Notes under the pieces: generated by a model
The model's input: the letters and a program-made list of their open reading frames with translations, nothing else
Databases searched by the model: none
What the model was told of the DNA's origin: nothing
From: a virus
IMG/VR virus record: IMGVR_UViG_3300021976_000002
Location: 1-55,163 of that record
DNA: 55,163 nucleotides
Direction: 5' to 3' (one strand)
Shown here: one piece after another, positions 7,569 to 54,919 of the stretch
How the letters are laid out: each line of letters opens with the position of its first letter
Position numbering within the stretch: the stretch's first letter is position 1
Position numbers and translations under genes: made by a program

Positions 7569-7638
7569 AGACTTCGGTTAGACTTGAGTTACCCCTAGCG
7601 CGTGTGGAGTTGTGAGGGCTCAAGTCTAACCGAAGTCT
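7569..7638. repeat. GTCTAAC-family inverted repeat A
   Basis: Two perfect 20-bp arms (7569-7588 and 7619-7638) enclose 30 bp. Each arm contains GTTAGAC/GTCTAAC, and a further GTCTAAC lies just outside the right arm. On the minus strand the loop contains CCCT, then ACTCCACACGCGCTAGGGG, which aligns with the loops of the repeats at 32451 and 33320. It fills the gap between the chaperone and tape-measure genes and would form a strong hairpin in the late mRNA. Confidence 0.9.
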
Positions 7639-43491: not shown

Positions 43492-44256
43492 ATGACTGTA
43501 CCTCAGAAGCTTGTCGTCGTTCTCTCTGGAGGACTGGACAGTACTACTCTCCTGTACGATGCGGTGGCTCAAGGCGCCGATGTTGTTCGGGCCGTCAGCT
43601 TCAACTACGGACAGAGGCACAAGAAGGAATTGGACTACGCTAAGCAGTCCGCAGAGAAGCTCAGCATCAAGCACACCGTTATCGACCTGTGGTCGTCGGG
43701 TCTGACTGAGGCGTTTTCCAATTCGGAAAGCTCGCTGGTCACGGACACCGATGTGCCTGAGGGACACTACGGCGAGGAGTCGATGAAGGCTACTGTCGTT
43801 CCCAACCGCAACATGATCATGCTCAGCATCGCAGGTGGCATTGCCGTAGCTGATGGTGCCAATGCCGTCGCTACTGGTGTGCATGCTGGCGACCACTTCA
43901 TTTACCCTGACTGCCGACCTGCATTCATTAGCACAGCCGCCTCGGCCTTGGCTCTAGGCAACGATGGCTTCGGCTCTCTCGACGTGGCTCCCATCTTCAC
44001 GCCGTACATCTTCCGGAGCAAGAACGATATTGCCTTCCGGGCTATCGAGTTGGACGTTCCTCTTCACGAGACTTGGTCTTGCTACAACGGACGAGAGAAC
44101 CATTGCGGGCGATGCGGCACTTGTGTCGAGCGCTTGGAGTCCATTGACTGGGCGGTCAACAAGTTCCTGGACGAGTACAATGTTGAGGTCGAGGATCACA
44201 CCATGTACGAGGACGACGCGTACTGGCGAGAGGCTCTCAAGAGGGAGACGGTCTAA
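43492..44256 (+). CDS. queC: 7-cyano-7-deazaguanine (preQ0) synthase QueC
   Basis: A 254-residue enzyme that turns carboxy-deazaguanine plus ammonia into preQ0 with ATP. SGGLDSTT (12-19) is the PP-loop; SWSCYNGRENHCGRCGTC provides the zinc cysteines 197, 205, 208 and 211. AGGAG lies eight bases before the ATG. There is no fused amidotransferase domain, so the expected end product is preQ0 rather than the amide. First gene of the modification island. Confidence 0.95.
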   Translation: MTVPQKLVVVLSGGLDSTTLLYDAVAQGADVVRAVSFNYGQRHKKELDYAKQSAEKLSIKHTVIDLWSSGLTEAFSNSESSLVTDTDVPEGHYGEESMKATVVPNRNMIMLSIAGGIAVADGANAVATGVHAGDHFIYPDCRPAFISTAASALALGNDGFGSLDVAPIFTPYIFRSKNDIAFRAIELDVPLHETWSCYNGRENHCGRCGTCVERLESIDWAVNKFLDEYNVEVEDHTMYEDDAYWREALKRETV

Positions 44257-44769
44257 ATGATCGTAGCTGTCAAGCACAACTTCGAGACGGCACATCGTCT
44301 ACCTTTCCTCGAAGGCAAGTGCCAGAGCATCCACGGTCACTCGTGGTGGGTGGAGTGGCAATTCGAGAAGCCAGTTGACTCCAACGGTCTGACTGTTGAG
44401 TACGGAACGATGAAGCGTCACCTCCGGGATTGGGTTGACACCTATCTCGACCACGGAACAATGCTTGGCATTAACGATCCTTTGTGGCAAGCATTCAAGG
44501 ATGATATTGGCTGTAAGCTCTTCACCTTCGGAGCCTCTAGCAAAGAGTTCATGAGCACTGCTGACCATAAGTGGCCTACAGTAGAAGCTGTCGCTCAGCT
44601 TCTAGCAAATGTAGGCGAAGGGCTTATTGGAGAAGCTCAGATCGTCAGAGTCGAAGTTCAAGAGACGCATGTCAACAAAGCTATCTGGACACCAACTGAG
44701 AACGACATCGAGTATCAGAGGAGAGTTCGTGAACCCGCTCAAGACACTTTCGGGCAACGATCGAAGTGA
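44257..44769 (+). CDS. queD: 6-carboxytetrahydropterin synthase QueD
   Basis: A 170-residue enzyme that makes 6-carboxy-tetrahydropterin from dihydroneopterin triphosphate. HNFETAHRLPFLEGKCQSIH and GHSW give the zinc ligands (His13, His26, His28) and the catalytic Cys22; LDHGTMLGIND and VEVQETHVNKA are the other family boxes. Immediately follows QueC. Confidence 0.93.
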   Translation: MIVAVKHNFETAHRLPFLEGKCQSIHGHSWWVEWQFEKPVDSNGLTVEYGTMKRHLRDWVDTYLDHGTMLGINDPLWQAFKDDIGCKLFTFGASSKEFMSTADHKWPTVEAVAQLLANVGEGLIGEAQIVRVEVQETHVNKAIWTPTENDIEYQRRVREPAQDTFGQRSK

Positions 44770-44920
44770 AGAGCCTGACTCGTTGTACCAACTGTACACG
44801 ATGCATGGGCTAAGGGACGGCAAGCATGTCTATGCTGGAACGGTTACTCGTAGCGACCGTGACCGACGCCGCGCAAAGAATCGGGTGGCTAAGAAGTCCA
44901 GGAAGAGGAACCGTGGCTGA
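44729..44920 (+). CDS. 63-residue basic protein inside the modification island
   Basis: GTG at 44729 after AGAGGAGAG, overlapping the end of queD by 41 bases. SLYQLYTMHGLRDGKHVYAG, then a very basic tail (RDRRRAKNRVAKKSRKRNRG). Could bind DNA or RNA. Unknown; its fixed place in the island suggests a link with modification. Confidence 0.55.
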   Translation: MNPLKTLSGNDRSEEPDSLYQLYTMHGLRDGKHVYAGTVTRSDRDRRRAKNRVAKKSRKRNRG

Positions 44921-45290
44921 CCCATACCTCGAGGGTAAGGTCTCCGACTCTATCTCTGGAGGCCTCGGAGTGACTGACACCGAGTACACTCTCGATGCCA
45001 ATGATCCGTTCGAGTCGAAGCTGATCGAGATGGTCAAGCTCAATCGAATGAAGCGAGCTGACTACGCTGGCGACGAAGATCCTTGGCAGAACTTTGTTGA
45101 CAGTGCTATTCAAGTCAACGATACACCAGGCAAGTCTGTCGAGACGTTGATCGCTACCAAGCAGGCTCGACTTCGGCAGCTTCTGTTCACTGGTCGCGCA
45201 CCCAAGAATGAAGCCGTGCGCGACACAGTCCTCGACCGTGCAGTGTATTCTGTCATTGCCCTTTCGATCTACGACCGAGGAGACTACTGA
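44913..45290 (+). CDS. DUF1599/DUF6378-like protein (nucleotide-modification-associated type)
   Basis: A 125-residue helical protein from GTG 44913 (AGGAAGAGG upstream). MKRADYAGDEDPWQNFVDSA, then LIATKQARLRQLLFTGRAPK and NEAVRDTVLDRAVYSVIALS follow the order of small all-helical proteins often found near phage DNA-modification genes. The match is by pattern and needs a profile search. It lies between queD and queE, so a role in handling modified nucleotides is inferred. Confidence 0.6.
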   Translation: MADPYLEGKVSDSISGGLGVTDTEYTLDANDPFESKLIEMVKLNRMKRADYAGDEDPWQNFVDSAIQVNDTPGKSVETLIATKQARLRQLLFTGRAPKNEAVRDTVLDRAVYSVIALSIYDRGDY

Positions 45291-45535
45291 TGAGTGAGCC
45301 CAACGAACCGCTTGACCCCGAAGAGGGTGTGACTCCAGAAGGGGTTATCACCGACAATGACTTCGCATTCGGATCTAACGGAATAACTCTAGCTCCTCTC
45401 ATTCCAGTCCGTATCGAGACTAAGCAGCAGGCCTATCGAGCCGGCATCTGGATCAAGCTTATGGGTGAGTTTCTTCCTGACGAGCCAGTCGCCTCGACCT
45501 GGGAAGAGATCCAGAACGCGATTGAGGGGACCTGA
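45290..45535 (+). CDS. 81-residue acidic protein in the modification island
   Basis: MSEPNEPLDPEEGVTPEGVI, then a short fold (IPVRIETKQQAYRAGIWIKL; LPDEPVASTWEEIQNAIEGT). Overlaps both neighbours (TGATG). Unknown. Confidence 0.6.
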   Translation: MSEPNEPLDPEEGVTPEGVITDNDFAFGSNGITLAPLIPVRIETKQQAYRAGIWIKLMGEFLPDEPVASTWEEIQNAIEGT

Positions 45536-46242
45536 TGGTTGTACGAGTGAGTGAGGTCTACCTGAGTGTGCAGGGTGAAGGGCCTCGAGCTGGTCAGCGT
45601 ACGGTGTTCGTCCGATTCGGTGGATGCAACCTTCGTTGCCCCGGATGGCCCTGTGACACTCAGCACGCGATTGATCCGGCTCTTTATCGTAACGAGTGGA
45701 TCAAGACTGAGCCTGCAGACCTCGTTGAACAGATCGACAAGGTAGCAGAGAAGACCCTGAGTACTGCGATCTGCTTCACGGGCGGTGAGCCATTCCTTCA
45801 GCACCACCCCGACCTGGCTGAGGTCATGGATGGCTTGATGGTTCGAGGCTACGGAACGTATGAGTGCTTCAGCAATGGGACTATCTTGTACCCTGAATGG
45901 GCTACTCGTGAGTTGTCCTTTATCATGGACTGGAAGCTCCCAGGCTCTGGAGAGAACCATCTCAACCCAGTACGCCTGAAGAACTTGTCGAACCTTAAGG
46001 TCAAGGATGCTGTCAAGTTCGTTATCAAGGATCGAAATGACTTCGAGGTAGCCAAGGAACTGTACCTTAGGTACATCGAACGGATCCCGAATGCGTGGCG
46101 CCCTCGTACCTACTACGGTGTGGTGTGGGGAGCTATGGAGAACTCCGAACTCATCGAATGGGTTCTGGACGCCAAGCTTCCATGGTGGATAAATGTGCAA
46201 GTGCATAATTATATTTGGTCCAGGGATCAGAGAGGCATTTGA
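45535..46242 (+). CDS. queE: 7-carboxy-7-deazaguanine synthase QueE (radical SAM)
   Basis: A 235-residue radical-SAM enzyme that makes the deazaguanine ring. VYLSVQGEGPRAGQRTVFVR and FGGCNLRCPGWPCDTQ give cluster cysteines 31, 35 and 40 (CX3CX4C, one residue longer than the common CX3CX2C), followed by AICFTGGEPFLQ, the SAM-binding GGE box. The longer last loop is probably a phage QueE variant. Confidence 0.92.
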   Translation: MVVRVSEVYLSVQGEGPRAGQRTVFVRFGGCNLRCPGWPCDTQHAIDPALYRNEWIKTEPADLVEQIDKVAEKTLSTAICFTGGEPFLQHHPDLAEVMDGLMVRGYGTYECFSNGTILYPEWATRELSFIMDWKLPGSGENHLNPVRLKNLSNLKVKDAVKFVIKDRNDFEVAKELYLRYIERIPNAWRPRTYYGVVWGAMENSELIEWVLDAKLPWWINVQVHNYIWSRDQRGI

Positions 46243-46243
46243 T

Positions 46244-46822
46244 ATGCTCGAGCAGGACGCTTTGTTCGGTACGTACACTCCTGAGGGGCATGCACTCGAA
46301 ATCTTTTCCTCTTTGGAAGCTTGGGAAAGAACGAACGAGAACCACAGGGAGGATACACCAGTACGTTTCATCAATGCCCTCCGCCAGCTGACTGAACGGG
46401 AGGAGTTCAACTTCACTACGTTCGACAACGATGGCATCGACGAGATGATCACGCTTGGGCCAATTCCCTTCTACACGTTGTGTGCCCATCATGTGGTTCC
46501 CTTCTACGGCAACGCCTGGGTTGGCTACGTGCCAGATGGACGCATCGCCGGCCTGAGCAAGTTCGCTCGCGCTGTCAAGTATGTGGCGAAGGGCTTCTGG
46601 GTTCAGGAGGAGCTCACTCGAGAGCTGGCCGACTTCCTCGAGCACAAGCTGGAGCCCAAGGGCGTAGCCATCGTGATGAAGGCTGAGCACATGTGCATGG
46701 CAATGCGAGGCGTGCAGCAGCCAGGTGTGATCACTACGACATCGACCATGCGGGGTGTGTTCGCAGACCACTCTCGCACAGCGAAGGCAGAGTTCCTTCA
46801 CAATGTGAATGGAGCACACTGA
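46244..46822 (+). CDS. folE: GTP cyclohydrolase I (FolE)
   Basis: A 192-residue enzyme giving dihydroneopterin triphosphate, the first precursor of preQ0. PFYTLCAHHVVPFYGNAWVG holds zinc Cys80 and His82/83; IAGLSKFARAVKYVAKGFWV and AEHMCMAMRGVQQPG (Cys151) are the other boxes. ATG 46244 is preferred to 46193 because GAGAGG is eight bases upstream and queE ends at 46242. Confidence 0.93.
   Translation: MLEQDALFGTYTPEGHALEIFSSLEAWERTNENHREDTPVRFINALRQLTEREEFNFTTFDNDGIDEMITLGPIPFYTLCAHHVVPFYGNAWVGYVPDGRIAGLSKFARAVKYVAKGFWVQEELTRELADFLEHKLEPKGVAIVMKAEHMCMAMRGVQQPGVITTTSTMRGVFADHSRTAKAEFLHNVNGAH
46339..46349 (+). repeat. GAACCACAGG motif, copy 6 of 7
   Basis: Exact GAACCACAGGG on the plus strand, inside folE where it reads as part of E-N-H-R-E. 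Confidence 0.7.
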
Positions 46823-47229
46823 TGAGCTACGCAGCTGACAGCAATGGCGAACGTGTTTACTTCGAACGGGAACTAAGTGTAACAGACTCCCGCGAACAGC
46901 TTTATCACCTGGCCAAGCAGTGCCTCGAGGACAGTGAACGTTGGTTCGGAGACAGTGGTAAGGTGCATGACCTTCCTCATCATGGACTAGGCCTTGGAGG
47001 TGAGACAGGCGAAGTCCTAGAGATCATTAAGAAGATCGATCGCGGCTCTTTAGATCTCAGCGATCCGAACGTTGAAGAAGCATTGGCTTTGGAACTGACG
47101 GACGTTCTAATCTATGTTCTGAACCTCGCAGCCATTCTTAACATTGACCTGCAACAAACTTACAACCAGAAGCGTAGCATCAATGAAGACCGCTTCATGA
47201 GACAACGACGGGAACGGGAGAGTCGATGA
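46822..47229 (+). CDS. MazG-like nucleotide pyrophosphohydrolase 1
   Basis: A 135-residue helical protein with GLGLGGETGEVLEIIKKIDR and LALELTDVLIYVLNLAAIL, the ExxE...ExxD metal-binding set of MazG-like enzymes. It may trim the nucleotide pool, for instance removing unwanted dNTPs during replication with modified DNA. Confidence 0.8.
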   Translation: MSYAADSNGERVYFERELSVTDSREQLYHLAKQCLEDSERWFGDSGKVHDLPHHGLGLGGETGEVLEIIKKIDRGSLDLSDPNVEEALALELTDVLIYVLNLAAILNIDLQQTYNQKRSINEDRFMRQRRERESR

Positions 47230-47540
47230 CTGACGCTAAGGTTCGAATCAGTGGCTCCAAGGTCTGGTTCGATCAGAAGGAAGTTACCAAGGAAGACATC
47301 GACAGGTTCGGTGACGGCTTCGAGACTCTCCGGCACATCCGGTACGTTAAGGGTGCAGAGGAGTATGGCGACCTGACCTTCCTCGACAACGACATCATCC
47401 GAATGATGGCCGAGGAGCTTGCTGACACCGCCAACTACTGCAAGATGCAATTCATCAAGCTCATGCTCCTGAAGCGTGAACTCGACAAGCAGTACCCGAG
47501 CGACCAGGACTTCAACGGGACTAAGAGGGGATGGGAGTAG
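47226..47540 (+). CDS. MazG-like protein 2
   Basis: A 104-residue protein with LRHIRYVKGAEEYGDLTFLD and MMAEELADTANYCKMQFIKL, the short phage MazG-like form (E-Y-G...E-E-L-x-D...Y). ATGA overlap with the first MazG-like gene. Two such genes in tandem are unusual and may have different substrates. Confidence 0.7.
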   Translation: MTDAKVRISGSKVWFDQKEVTKEDIDRFGDGFETLRHIRYVKGAEEYGDLTFLDNDIIRMMAEELADTANYCKMQFIKLMLLKRELDKQYPSDQDFNGTKRGWE

Positions 47541-47542
47541 AC

Positions 47543-48349
47543 ATGAAGCTGGCATTGATTCCACCAATCAGTCTTCGACATACTGCTGTGCAGAGCAGGT
47601 ACCATCTCGTCCTGCCTCAACTCCTCGAGGCGCGCGACGAGTACTTCGCCATGTACTACACCATTGCCAAAGAGATCCCAGGCAACTTCATTATCCTGGA
47701 CAATGGTGAGGCTGAGGGTGCTCAGGTTGACTTCGAGACTCTTATCTCCTACGCAGCCGAACTTGATGCTGACGAGGTTGTCCTCCCCGATGTGATGAAG
47801 GATGCACAGAGAACCATTCACCGCATTGAAGAGTTCCTACAGTGGTACGACAACTCTGAATGGGGAGGAGGACGCCGCCGCAACTTTATGTTCGTTGCCC
47901 AGGGGACAACCTACGAGGAAGTCCAGAGCATGATGGGTGAGGTGATGGAAGACAAGGAGATGTCCAAGAACATCTCTGCTGTTGGTATCCCCCGCCATCT
48001 GGTTGAGACATTAAATGACAACCAGGCTCGTGTTGAATTGGCCTACTACTTCCACGAGCGGTACAGTAACAGCGACTACGCACCTGTGGCGATCCACTTC
48101 CTCGGAGCCTCGCCTGTGTACGTTGAAGAGGTGGGCGACCTTCAATCCATTGGCATTGGCCGAGGCATGGACACGTCGCTCCCTTACAATGCAACATACC
48201 ACAGTGTGGAACTTGGAGGGCTTACGCCCGATGTTGTGAGTCGGCCGGATGGGTACTTCGACCTTGACCACCAGGCCTTCAATAGTCAACTGCTCGAGAA
48301 GAACATTCACACCATGATGGACTGGGCCCATGGTCGAACTAACTCCTAG
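47543..48349 (+). CDS. dpdA: DpdA-like 7-deazaguanine DNA transglycosylase
   Basis: A 268-residue TGT-like barrel protein that would swap guanine in DNA for the deazaguanine base. FIILDNGEAEGAQVDFETLI gives Asp53 (base-binding place), ADEVVLPDVMKDAQRT gives Asp83, and IGIGRGMDTSLPYN gives Asp210, a candidate nucleophile. GGGAG precedes the ATG at 47543; an ATG four codons earlier is possible. It closes the preQ0 island and overlaps the polymerase gene by 20 bases. Confidence 0.82.
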   Translation: MKLALIPPISLRHTAVQSRYHLVLPQLLEARDEYFAMYYTIAKEIPGNFIILDNGEAEGAQVDFETLISYAAELDADEVVLPDVMKDAQRTIHRIEEFLQWYDNSEWGGGRRRNFMFVAQGTTYEEVQSMMGEVMEDKEMSKNISAVGIPRHLVETLNDNQARVELAYYFHERYSNSDYAPVAIHFLGASPVYVEEVGDLQSIGIGRGMDTSLPYNATYHSVELGGLTPDVVSRPDGYFDLDHQAFNSQLLEKNIHTMMDWAHGRTNS

Positions 48350-50780
48350 GAATGTTACGCGCAAGCATCCGAAGGCGCGGTGCGAAGAGTGCCCCCTGTA
48401 CGAAGTTGGTAAGTTCGTACCGAGTGTTGGTCCTGCCAATGCTGAACTTGCCTTCGTCGGAGAAGCTCCAGGTGTCAAGGAGACTCGCCAGGGTATTCCC
48501 TTCACTGGTCCCTCTGGCAAGCTTCTCGACAAGGTCATGGAGCACCATGGCTTCAATAGAGAAGATGTCTTCCTGAGCAATGCTTGTCTCTGCCGACCAC
48601 CAGACAATGCGACACCAACCAAGTCAGCCATCTTCGCCTGCCGTGATAGGCTTGTCGCTGAACTAGAACAACACAACGTCAAGACTGTGGTGGCGTTGGG
48701 TAACTCGGCTGCTGAGTCGTTGCTCGGTCAGTCAGGTGTCACCAAGCTTCGAGTTGGTCCTGGCAAGCTATCGAAGTATGCCAAGGACGTTCTGGTCATC
48801 CCCACTCTACACCCTGCAGCCTGCCTTCGTCAGGGTGACATGTTCCCCTATCTCGTCACTGACGTTGGAAAGGTAAACGCTACCCATGAAGAGTGGACTG
48901 AGCCTGAGTACAGAGTCCTTGACACTACAAGGGACGCTCTCGATGCCTGTAAAGAATTGGCACGTGTACAGGGACCATTTGTTATCGACATTGAAGTTGA
49001 CATTGAAAAGGACACCGCTTACGATCATCCAAACCACTACGGTATGCTGTGCCTTGGAATCGCTTATGCCCCAAAGCGGGCAGTTGTTTTCTCTGAAGGT
49101 GTCATGGGCGAACGAGACGTTCGAGATGCGCTTGGAGGTCTTCTCCGCAACAAGAAACTTATTGCGCAGAACGGCAAGTTCGATCTAGCGGGACTCTACC
49201 CTGTCCTAGGTCCTCTCGAGCTTTGGTTCGACACCATGCTAGCTTCCTACGTCTTCGATGAACGCCCAGGCATTCATGCGCTGAAGCACATGGCTGTAGA
49301 ATACCTAGGCGCACCCCAGTACGATGACGAGGTGAAGAAGTATGTGGGACCCGGCGACGGTTACGGTGTCATTCCACGAGACGTCCTCTACAAGTACAAT
49401 GCGCTCGATGTTGCCTGTACGTATTCGCTGTACGAGATGTTCAGCAAGCGGCTCGATCTCGATCAAGCGGCGACGCCGGAAGGTCAACGATCGCTACGAG
49501 ATGTACACGACTTCCTCGTGGCAGCATCCAATCAACTCATGTACGTTGAGCTCAATGGCATTGGAGTTGACCGCGAGTATCTAGACACGCTCACGGATGA
49601 GTACCTTGATCGTCTGGATAACATCGAGCAGGACATCAACAAGATCATTGAGGGCCGTGACTACGACAAGCGTGGCGGCATCAACCCCCGATCGCCAATG
49701 CAGGTCAAGCAGTACTTGTCGGACAAGGGTATCATCACAGAGACTACTAACGAAGATGCTCTGAACATGATCAAGGATAGACTTGCAGGGATGATCCTCG
49801 ACCATGACTCAGGAACCAAGAAGCTTGGTGCCTCAGAAAACGTAGCCAGGGAGGTGTTGTCTTTTGTGCAGACGCTGCTCACGCATCGTCGCGAGGCTAA
49901 GCTCTACGGAACGTACGTCAAGGGTATCCGTAAGCGTATGTCCAGGGGAAGAGTGTTCCCCACCTTCTTGCTCCACGGTACTACGACCGGACGGCTTGCT
50001 TGCCGTAACCCTAACATGCAAAACATTCCACGTGAGTCGACTATTCGACGTCTCTTCGTACCATCAAAGCCTGATCACGTCTTCGTGGAGACCGACTATA
50101 GTCAGGCTGAGTTGCGGGTGCTCAGTTACCTTGCAGGCGACACTTACTTCCGTGACATCTTCAACGGAGGAGAGCGTGACCTCTTTGATGAGCTGACTCC
50201 CATTCTGTATCCGGAGTTGCAGAGTAAGGAAGCCTGCCCTCCCGAGCTGTGGAAAGAGATCCGGATTCGAGTCAAGGCTTACGTGTACGGTCTCTCCTAC
50301 GGACGCTCTGAGTTCTCTATTGCCGACGAGTACAAGATCAGTGTTAAGGAAGCCCGCAAGGGTATGTATGCCTTCTTCGATGTCATCCCAGAGATCGTTA
50401 CCTTCAGGAACGAGACGAAGAAGAAGGTGCTAGCCGGAGAGGACCTCATCACTCCTTGGGGTCGACACCGTCGCTACAGTCTCATCACGAAGGAGAACAA
50501 GGACTCCATTCTTCGAGAGGCTCTAGCCTTCCTCCCTCAGAGTACTTCCTCGGACATGTGCTTGCAGGCTATGGGATGGTCTCGTCGTGACCTCAAGGGC
50601 ATCGGATGGGTTCGTAACATCGTCCATGACTCTGTACTCGTTGAGTGTCACGAAGAGGATCAGGATGAAGTCAAGCAGATCGTAGAGACGCACATGATCG
50701 AATCTGCCAAGACGATCGTCGGTGACTACGTCAAGTTCGCCGTTGAGTCGAAGACTGGAAAGAGCTGGGCCAAGACATGA
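48330..50780 (+). CDS. Uracil-DNA glycosylase fused to family A DNA polymerase
   Basis: An 816-residue replicative polymerase. Residues 1-190 are a family 4 uracil-DNA glycosylase: Cys18, Cys21, Cys88 and Cys104 for the Fe-S cluster, FVGEAPG (42-48) and TLHPAACLRQ (159-168). Residues about 215-370 are a proofreading exonuclease (Asp220, Glu222, FD at 284-285, ALD at 358-360). The polymerase has TTGRLACRNPNMQNIPRE, motif A ETDYSQAELR (Asp589), motif B with Arg645, Lys649 and Tyr653, and motif C IVHDSVLVE (Asp767). Tyr653 stands where E. coli Pol I has Phe762, as in T7 polymerase. Confidence 0.9.
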   Translation: MVELTPRNVTRKHPKARCEECPLYEVGKFVPSVGPANAELAFVGEAPGVKETRQGIPFTGPSGKLLDKVMEHHGFNREDVFLSNACLCRPPDNATPTKSAIFACRDRLVAELEQHNVKTVVALGNSAAESLLGQSGVTKLRVGPGKLSKYAKDVLVIPTLHPAACLRQGDMFPYLVTDVGKVNATHEEWTEPEYRVLDTTRDALDACKELARVQGPFVIDIEVDIEKDTAYDHPNHYGMLCLGIAYAPKRAVVFSEGVMGERDVRDALGGLLRNKKLIAQNGKFDLAGLYPVLGPLELWFDTMLASYVFDERPGIHALKHMAVEYLGAPQYDDEVKKYVGPGDGYGVIPRDVLYKYNALDVACTYSLYEMFSKRLDLDQAATPEGQRSLRDVHDFLVAASNQLMYVELNGIGVDREYLDTLTDEYLDRLDNIEQDINKIIEGRDYDKRGGINPRSPMQVKQYLSDKGIITETTNEDALNMIKDRLAGMILDHDSGTKKLGASENVAREVLSFVQTLLTHRREAKLYGTYVKGIRKRMSRGRVFPTFLLHGTTTGRLACRNPNMQNIPRESTIRRLFVPSKPDHVFVETDYSQAELRVLSYLAGDTYFRDIFNGGERDLFDELTPILYPELQSKEACPPELWKEIRIRVKAYVYGLSYGRSEFSIADEYKISVKEARKGMYAFFDVIPEIVTFRNETKKKVLAGEDLITPWGRHRRYSLITKENKDSILREALAFLPQSTSSDMCLQAMGWSRRDLKGIGWVRNIVHDSVLVECHEEDQDEVKQIVETHMIESAKTIVGDYVKFAVESKTGKSWAKT

Positions 50781-54172: not shown

Positions 54173-54919
54173 TTAGACACAGACAATTCCATTCACTGGG
54201 ATCCTCTGCTCGACAGGCGCTTCAGTGTAGGTAATGATTACCTCACATTGACGAATGTCACCTTCGATGACAATGTTGACGATCCCTCTCCCCGGATCTC
54301 CCTTGTCACCCTTCGGTCCTGCTTCGCCTTGAACCCCTTGCTTTCCTTCTGGGCCAGGAGACCCAGTAGGTCCTATCGGTCCAGGAGGACCCTGCGGCCC
54401 AGTATCCCCTGTTGCACCTGTCGCTCCGGTAGCCCCGACAGGACCTTGAGGTCCAATGTCTCCTGAAGTCCCCTGCTCTCCAGGTTCACCTTGGACGCCC
54501 TCAACCCCTTGTGGACCGGTCGCACCGCGGAGTCCAATGTCGCCTGGAATACCCTGAGGACCTTGCTCACCTGTTTCTCCAGGTAGCCCTCGAGGACCCA
54601 TCGGACCACGACTACCAGTGTCACCCTTGTCCCCCTGATCTCCCTTCTCCCCCGGAGGACCAGGAATCTGTTCTGCAGGAGCATCAGCGACAACCTCGGC
54701 TTGACGACACCACTCATCTGGTACGTCGTCAGATGTTTCCGGATTAGCACACAACGCCTTGACCTGCTCAGCAACAACGGTAGCATTAGCCTGGGATGTT
54801 TCATTTTCCCTTCTGGCAATGTACCTGTCAAATGCACCATAGGCAACGAGGCCAAGAACAACAACTAGCAGAGCGTTCGTTACCCATTGTCTGGAAGAAC
54901 GATCTCTTAACCGGCTCAT
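54173..54919 (-). CDS. Collagen-like membrane-anchored protein
   Basis: A 248-residue protein with a membrane helix (ALLVVVLGLVAYGAF, about 16-30), a stalk with two Cys (LCANPE, EWCRQA), then about 41 uninterrupted Gly-x-y triplets (residues about 86-210) and a short C-terminal domain with two more Cys (RQCEVI, NGIVCV). Such repeats form trimeric triple helices. In the lysis cassette it may span the wall as a trimer; a virion fibre role is possible. Start overlaps the previous stop by ATGA. Confidence 0.82.
   Translation of the reverse strand: MSRLRDRSSRQWVTNALLVVVLGLVAYGAFDRYIARRENETSQANATVVAEQVKALCANPETSDDVPDEWCRQAEVVADAPAEQIPGPPGEKGDQGDKGDTGSRGPMGPRGLPGETGEQGPQGIPGDIGLRGATGPQGVEGVQGEPGEQGTSGDIGPQGPVGATGATGATGDTGPQGPPGPIGPTGSPGPEGKQGVQGEAGPKGDKGDPGRGIVNIVIEGDIRQCEVIITYTEAPVEQRIPVNGIVCV

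Follow-up and report, generated by a model that had tools for sequence, protein, structure and literature searches.

A putative 7-deazaguanine DNA-modification island with a CP220/phiST-type transglycosylase in an uncultured phage

We describe a gene island in an uncultured phage, IMG/VR record IMGVR_UViG_3300021976_000002, that is genuine and very probably modifies the phage DNA with a 7-deazaguanine. The window is the whole record, 55,163 bases long. The island runs from the start of queC to the stop of a dpdA-like gene at positions 43492-48349, exactly the span proposed in a first-pass annotation. Its last protein, of 272 amino acids (aa), is, judged by predicted fold and by family, a DNA-guanine transglycosylase. 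Profile comparisons place it with the enzymes of Campylobacter phage CP220 and Cellulophaga phage phiST, not with the CAjan/Typha type. Systems of this kind are already known; what is new here is the placement of the transglycosylase and a revised prediction of the base. The genes on which the argument turns are as follows.

43492-44256, + strand: QueC, 7-cyano-7-deazaguanine synthase, 254 aa (PF06508, E 5e-57; TIGR00364 above cut-off)
44257-44769, + strand: QueD, 6-carboxytetrahydropterin synthase, 170 aa (PF01242 (PTPS), E 8e-20; phrog_2389, E 1e-32)
45535-46242, + strand: QueE, radical S-adenosylmethionine (SAM) 7-carboxy-7-deazaguanine synthase, 235 aa (phrog_2076, E 5e-34; TIGR03963, E 9e-37, under cut-off)
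46244-46822, + strand: FolE, GTP cyclohydrolase I, 192 aa (PF01227, E 4e-47; reading frame open from 46193)
47531-48349, + strand: predicted DpdA-like DNA-guanine transglycosylase, 272 aa (AlphaFold2 fold, profile match to 7ui4, CP220/phiST family scores)

Pfam, PHROGs and NCBIfam together identify all four enzymes of the route from GTP to 7-cyano-7-deazaguanine (preQ0), which was claimed to be complete and is. QueC carries the SGGLDS P-loop and the CX7CX2CX2C zinc motif, aligned with the QueC proteins of CP220 and CAjan, and QueD has the C...HGH motif. Only QueC passes its NCBIfam cut-off; the scores of QueD (TIGR03367, E 3e-16), QueE and FolE fall below theirs, as may fit divergent phage members. 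In QueE the usual radical-SAM cluster motif CX3CX2C is replaced by CX3CX4C (CNLRCPGWPC), a form common to about 10 relatives. FolE probably starts at 46244 rather than 46193, judged by gene spacing. These four genes and that of the protein with the fold of a tRNA-guanine transglycosylase (TGT) all lie on the + strand, and the island is real. Chance can be excluded as its origin, with E-values far under 1e-15 from several independent matches and the same set of genes in at least 32 relatives.

The record carries identical 127-bp direct repeats at both ends, and therefore absences within it are meaningful. Tailed-phage structural genes lie on the - strand and replication genes on the + strand. 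From 43492 onwards ten + strand genes follow each other almost without gaps, in the order QueC, QueD, a 154-aa protein, an 81-aa protein, QueE, FolE, MazG, a 104-aa protein, the 272-aa protein and a DNA polymerase A (PolA) with a uracil-DNA-glycosylase (UDG) domain. FolE and MazG, MazG and the 104-aa gene, the 104-aa and 272-aa genes, and the 272-aa gene and PolA overlap or abut, as in one operon.

Neither Pfam nor PHROGs nor NCBIfam offers a useful match to the 272-aa protein. Even at E <= 1 the Pfam TGT family PF01702 finds nothing genome-wide, with all 14 controls detected. Its AlphaFold2 model is confident (predicted local distance difference test score, pLDDT, 93.8), and all 50 of the best 50 PDB fold matches are tRNA-guanine transglycosylases. 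The phiST enzyme ranks second in BFVD in a fold search with the protein (template-modelling score 0.77). Searched against PDB sequences, the family profile scores best with 7ui4, a bacterial DpdA that is itself a DNA-guanine transglycosylase (E 8e-4). I10, D57, E62, H189, G192 and D214 are invariant in the 64-member family alignment, and D57, D87, T95, R167, H189, G192 and D214 stay invariant when CAjan-type DpdA is added. The motifs run in the order LDNG, LPD, QG, GIP, IHLLG and DT, which appears to parallel the pocket and nucleophile residues of TGT. The suggestion that a DpdA-like protein would insert the base into DNA is thus supported by the TGT fold, the 7ui4 match and the CP220/phiST family.

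Family membership is clearest from profile scores. A profile of the window's family gives 139 bits to phiST gp042 and 103 bits to CP220 CPT_0056, as against 13 for HVTV-1 gp69, 10 for nt-1 and 7 for CAjan, with Erebus and Typha also at 13 or less. We also examined membership of the CAjan/9g-type family (DpdA1) and rejected it, as the DpdA1 hidden Markov model (HMM) scores the 272-aa protein at -2.0 bits and CAjan at 545. Aligned with hhalign, the window family and CAjan-type DpdA show a weak match (probability 29%). We take the CP220/phiST branch to be the one called DpdA3, the name reportedly given to the CP220 transglycosylase by Cui et al. in 2023.

From the genes, their order, and the fold and family of the transglycosylase we infer catalytic roles, base identity, extent and protection. 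That the island makes 7-deazaguanine DNA we regard as highly likely, and we are less sure of the base and of how far it replaces G. FolE would convert GTP to dihydroneopterin triphosphate, from which QueD and QueE would produce 7-carboxy-7-deazaguanine. QueC would amidate this to 7-amido-7-deazaguanine (ADG) and then dehydrate it to preQ0. The transglycosylase would excise guanine from DNA via a covalent aspartate intermediate, with D214 as the probable nucleophile and a base pocket containing D57 and D87, and would insert the deazaguanine. MazG would probably adjust the guanine nucleotide pool during replication. The phage DNA would then resist restriction enzymes whose sites contain G.

Which base is inserted, and how much of the guanine does it replace? 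The first-pass annotation predicted the deoxynucleoside of preQ0 (dPreQ0), noting that QueC lacks a fused amidotransferase domain and that no reductase is seen. Both observations stand: a domain search finds QueC without a fused amidotransferase (GAT) domain, and there is no QueF-family match anywhere in the record. Genome-wide searches with PF14489, PF17884 and PF13537 served as the reductase and amidotransferase test. Among the tailoring families searched, QueF, ArcS (DUF5591), GATase_7 and YhhQ give no match record-wide, with controls detected. The record thus holds the gene content by which Hutinet 2019 delimits group 2, with FolE, QueD, QueE, QueC and a DpdA-type enzyme present and no match to ArcS, GAT-QueC, QueF or QueF-L. 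The same content fits the dPreQ0 group of CAjan and Rosebush (PMC6884629). There, dPreQ0 makes up about 32% of G in CAjan and about 28% in Rosebush, and CAjan DpdA is required for a modification that protects the DNA. An outcome of this sort, with preQ0 placed in preferred contexts at about 30% of G to give dPreQ0 DNA, is possible, and we entertain it tentatively.

The dPreQ0 rule is not decisive here, because it was measured on CAjan and Rosebush, phages with another DpdA family (by an HMM comparison made for CAjan). The 272-aa enzyme falls outside that family by the HMM and hhalign scores given above. CP220 has QueC, and it lies in the same branch as the window. PMC8306585, citing Crippen 2019, gives 100% replacement of dG by the deoxynucleoside of ADG (dADG) in CP220 and CPt10, the only two phages of this type for which complete replacement is known. 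Both dPreQ0 and dADG are accordingly candidates for the base. dPreQ0 stays among the live predictions, although not as the sole one, and by analogy dADG with near-complete replacement looks at least as plausible. We expect extensive, perhaps near-complete, replacement of guanine because the enzyme is in the CP220/phiST branch rather than that of CAjan and Rosebush; the base would be dPreQ0, at close to an even chance, or dADG, at a little under that. Residues of QueC were tried as a predictor of the base and set aside, as the conserved positions are common to CP220 and CAjan and do not discriminate.

Some points weigh against our preferred reading. The link to the CP220 enzyme is at the profile level only, with a pairwise identity of 21%, and the base preference may not carry over. 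The CP220/phiST-type family itself appears to serve more than one base, because four relatives of the same enzyme family have a genuine QueF, one has GAT-QueC, and the phiST island is without QueC. On present alignments QueC cannot separate an enzyme that stops at ADG from one that makes preQ0. Lastly, the putative catalytic residues were mapped by motif order, not from a solved complex. Many weak QueF matches in relatives were left uncounted, since FolE, whose fold is related, seems to be what they hit.

A DNA-level search of GenBank phages gives no relatives, and tblastn with the 272-aa protein matches only six Bacillus-group phages. In IMG/VR the single sequence has no match; an alignment of three sequences, the 272-aa protein and those of two Bacillus-group phages, recovers 71 loci. 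There is no relative in GTDB genomes, and therefore no host can be assigned from that source. For neighbourhood counts we used 44 relatives with full context and 43 CAjan-type loci, the latter drawn from one lineage. All four biosynthesis genes occur in 32 of the 44 relatives and PolA in 42.

The closest known systems include those of two cultured Bacillus-group phages, Youna2 (a Weizmannia phage) and BSP7 (a Bacillus phage), in which QueC, QueD, QueE, FolE, a kinase-like gene, a DpdA of the same family and PolA follow in this order. Their DpdA is annotated 'hypothetical protein' and is about 30% identical to that of the window. They differ in having a QueE of another type, and the place of MazG and the 104-aa gene in the window is taken by a gene for a dNK-like P-loop kinase. 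CP220 shares the transglycosylase branch and QueC; its genes, however, are scattered, with an HD/P-loop protein on one side of the enzyme and a P-loop kinase-like protein on the other, and its base is known. The phiST island resembles that of the window in QueD, QueE, FolE, MazG and a same-branch DpdA adjoining the DNA polymerase, which is of the polymerase III type; phiST also has a kinase. Mycobacterium phage Rosebush and Escherichia phage CAjan have the same four biosynthesis enzymes, a TGT-like DNA enzyme and no amidotransferase, although replacement is partial and no MazG is annotated in the CAjan island.

The remaining genes of the run are listed here.

46822-47229, + strand: MazG-type (d)NTP pyrophosphohydrolase, 135 aa (PF03819 above cut-off; invariant EXXE...EXXD)
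47226-47540, + strand: 104-aa protein whose gene overlaps the start of dpdA (conserved dpdA-adjacent family, invariant R..G...YG..E..D..NY)
44826-45290, + strand: 154-aa protein, weakly DUF1599-like (phrog_1485, E 8e-7; PF07659, E 0.012, below cut-off)
45290-45535, + strand: 81-aa protein, no homologue found in searches that included Pfam, PHROGs and NCBIfam
48330-50780, + strand: DNA polymerase A with N-terminal uracil-DNA-glycosylase domain (PF03167, E 5e-31; PF00476, E 3e-57)

Two MazG-like proteins had been proposed. The first is a MazG, and its family profile matches dCTP pyrophosphatase structures (E 1e-11). The second, the 104-aa protein, has no MazG match in Pfam, PHROGs, NCBIfam or a PDB profile search, and its low-confidence model (pLDDT 73) has no fold match; its family occurs in 13 of the 44 full-context relatives. 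The DUF1599-like call for the 154-aa protein was not sustained, given the weak PF07659 match, and homologues are found only in the loci L012, L068 and L069. The UDG-PolA gene overlaps the end of dpdA, and of the 61 relatives that have PolA next to this DpdA family, 55 show the same fusion.

Genes of nucleotide-enzyme type recur beside the transglycosylase. Counted with clean separate profiles, at least one of three genes (for MazG, a dNK-like kinase or a member of the 104-aa family) adjoins it in 25 of the 44 relatives and in one of the 43 CAjan-type loci. Single reading frames fuse MazG to a dNK-like kinase in three deazaguanine islands (L023:5387-6436, L028:5397-6365 and L032:5363-6346). A MazG-DUF3310 fusion lies in another relative's island (L034:7104-7814). 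The contrast between the branches is suggestive only, because the CAjan-type sample is one lineage, at least one annotated pyrophosphohydrolase there, in Shewanella phage S0112, seems to be missed by the profile, and the 104-aa family has no assigned function. Shared replication modules may account for part of the association, which is no proof of function.

Could the base be exchanged in the nucleotide pool instead? MazG would then lower dGTP, and nucleotide-level base exchange and kinases would supply the phage polymerase with a deazaguanine dNTP, on the model of the 2-aminoadenine (dZ) phages. The neighbourhood counts, the MazG-kinase fusions and the kinase-like neighbours in CP220 agree with this, and MazZ of the dZ pathway is a MazG-like (d)GTP diphosphohydrolase (PMC8342488). 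We nevertheless find it unlikely: enzymes of the TGT fold have polynucleotides as their known substrates, the window's island has no identified kinase, phages often carry MazG genes, and the tally has the weaknesses just named. In a bolder form, equally improbable, the whole guanine pool would be converted before or during replication, with MazG depleting dGTP, the transglycosylase acting at the nucleotide level or, together with the neighbouring polymerase, at the fork, and dNK-like kinases recharging the product. If true, such conversion would account for complete replacement and for MazG-kinase fusions beside the enzyme. The simplest reading is that MazG probably trims guanine nucleotides during replication. 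It is very unlikely that the 272-aa protein is a tRNA transglycosylase raising host tRNA queuosine: the fold is that of TGT, and such a role was proposed for phages having the pathway without a recognised DpdA (PMC6884629), but TGT is longer by about 100 aa, the protein has no Pfam TGT match, its closest solved sequence is the DNA-guanine transglycosylase 7ui4, there is no QueF to make 7-aminomethyl-7-deazaguanine (preQ1), the usual bacterial TGT substrate, and the gene adjoins DNA polymerase in 42 of 44 relatives.

Among portal proteins, those nearest to the window's come from actinobacterial phages, e.g. Brevibacterium phage LuckyBarnes (48% identity), while in gene order the block of replication and modification genes is like that of Bacillus-group phages. 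LuckyBarnes is annotated with thymidylate synthase and hydroxymethylcytosine (HMC)-glucosyltransferase genes (L169:12845-16009), a hint of another DNA modification. Elsewhere in the record are a perfect inverted repeat at 7569-7638, with 20-bp arms and a 30-bp loop, and a collagen-like GXY-repeat protein near the right end (54173-54919, - strand).

Fold and family together allow a protein unmatched in the standard collections to be recognised as a likely DNA-guanine transglycosylase. This ties at least 70 viral loci to the branch with complete guanine replacement, among them cultured Bacillus-group phages in which the gene is annotated 'hypothetical protein'. BSP7 or Youna2 can be cultured, and they make the identity and extent of the base directly testable. 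Finally, the recurrent MazG and kinase-like neighbours raise the question of how complete replacement is reached.

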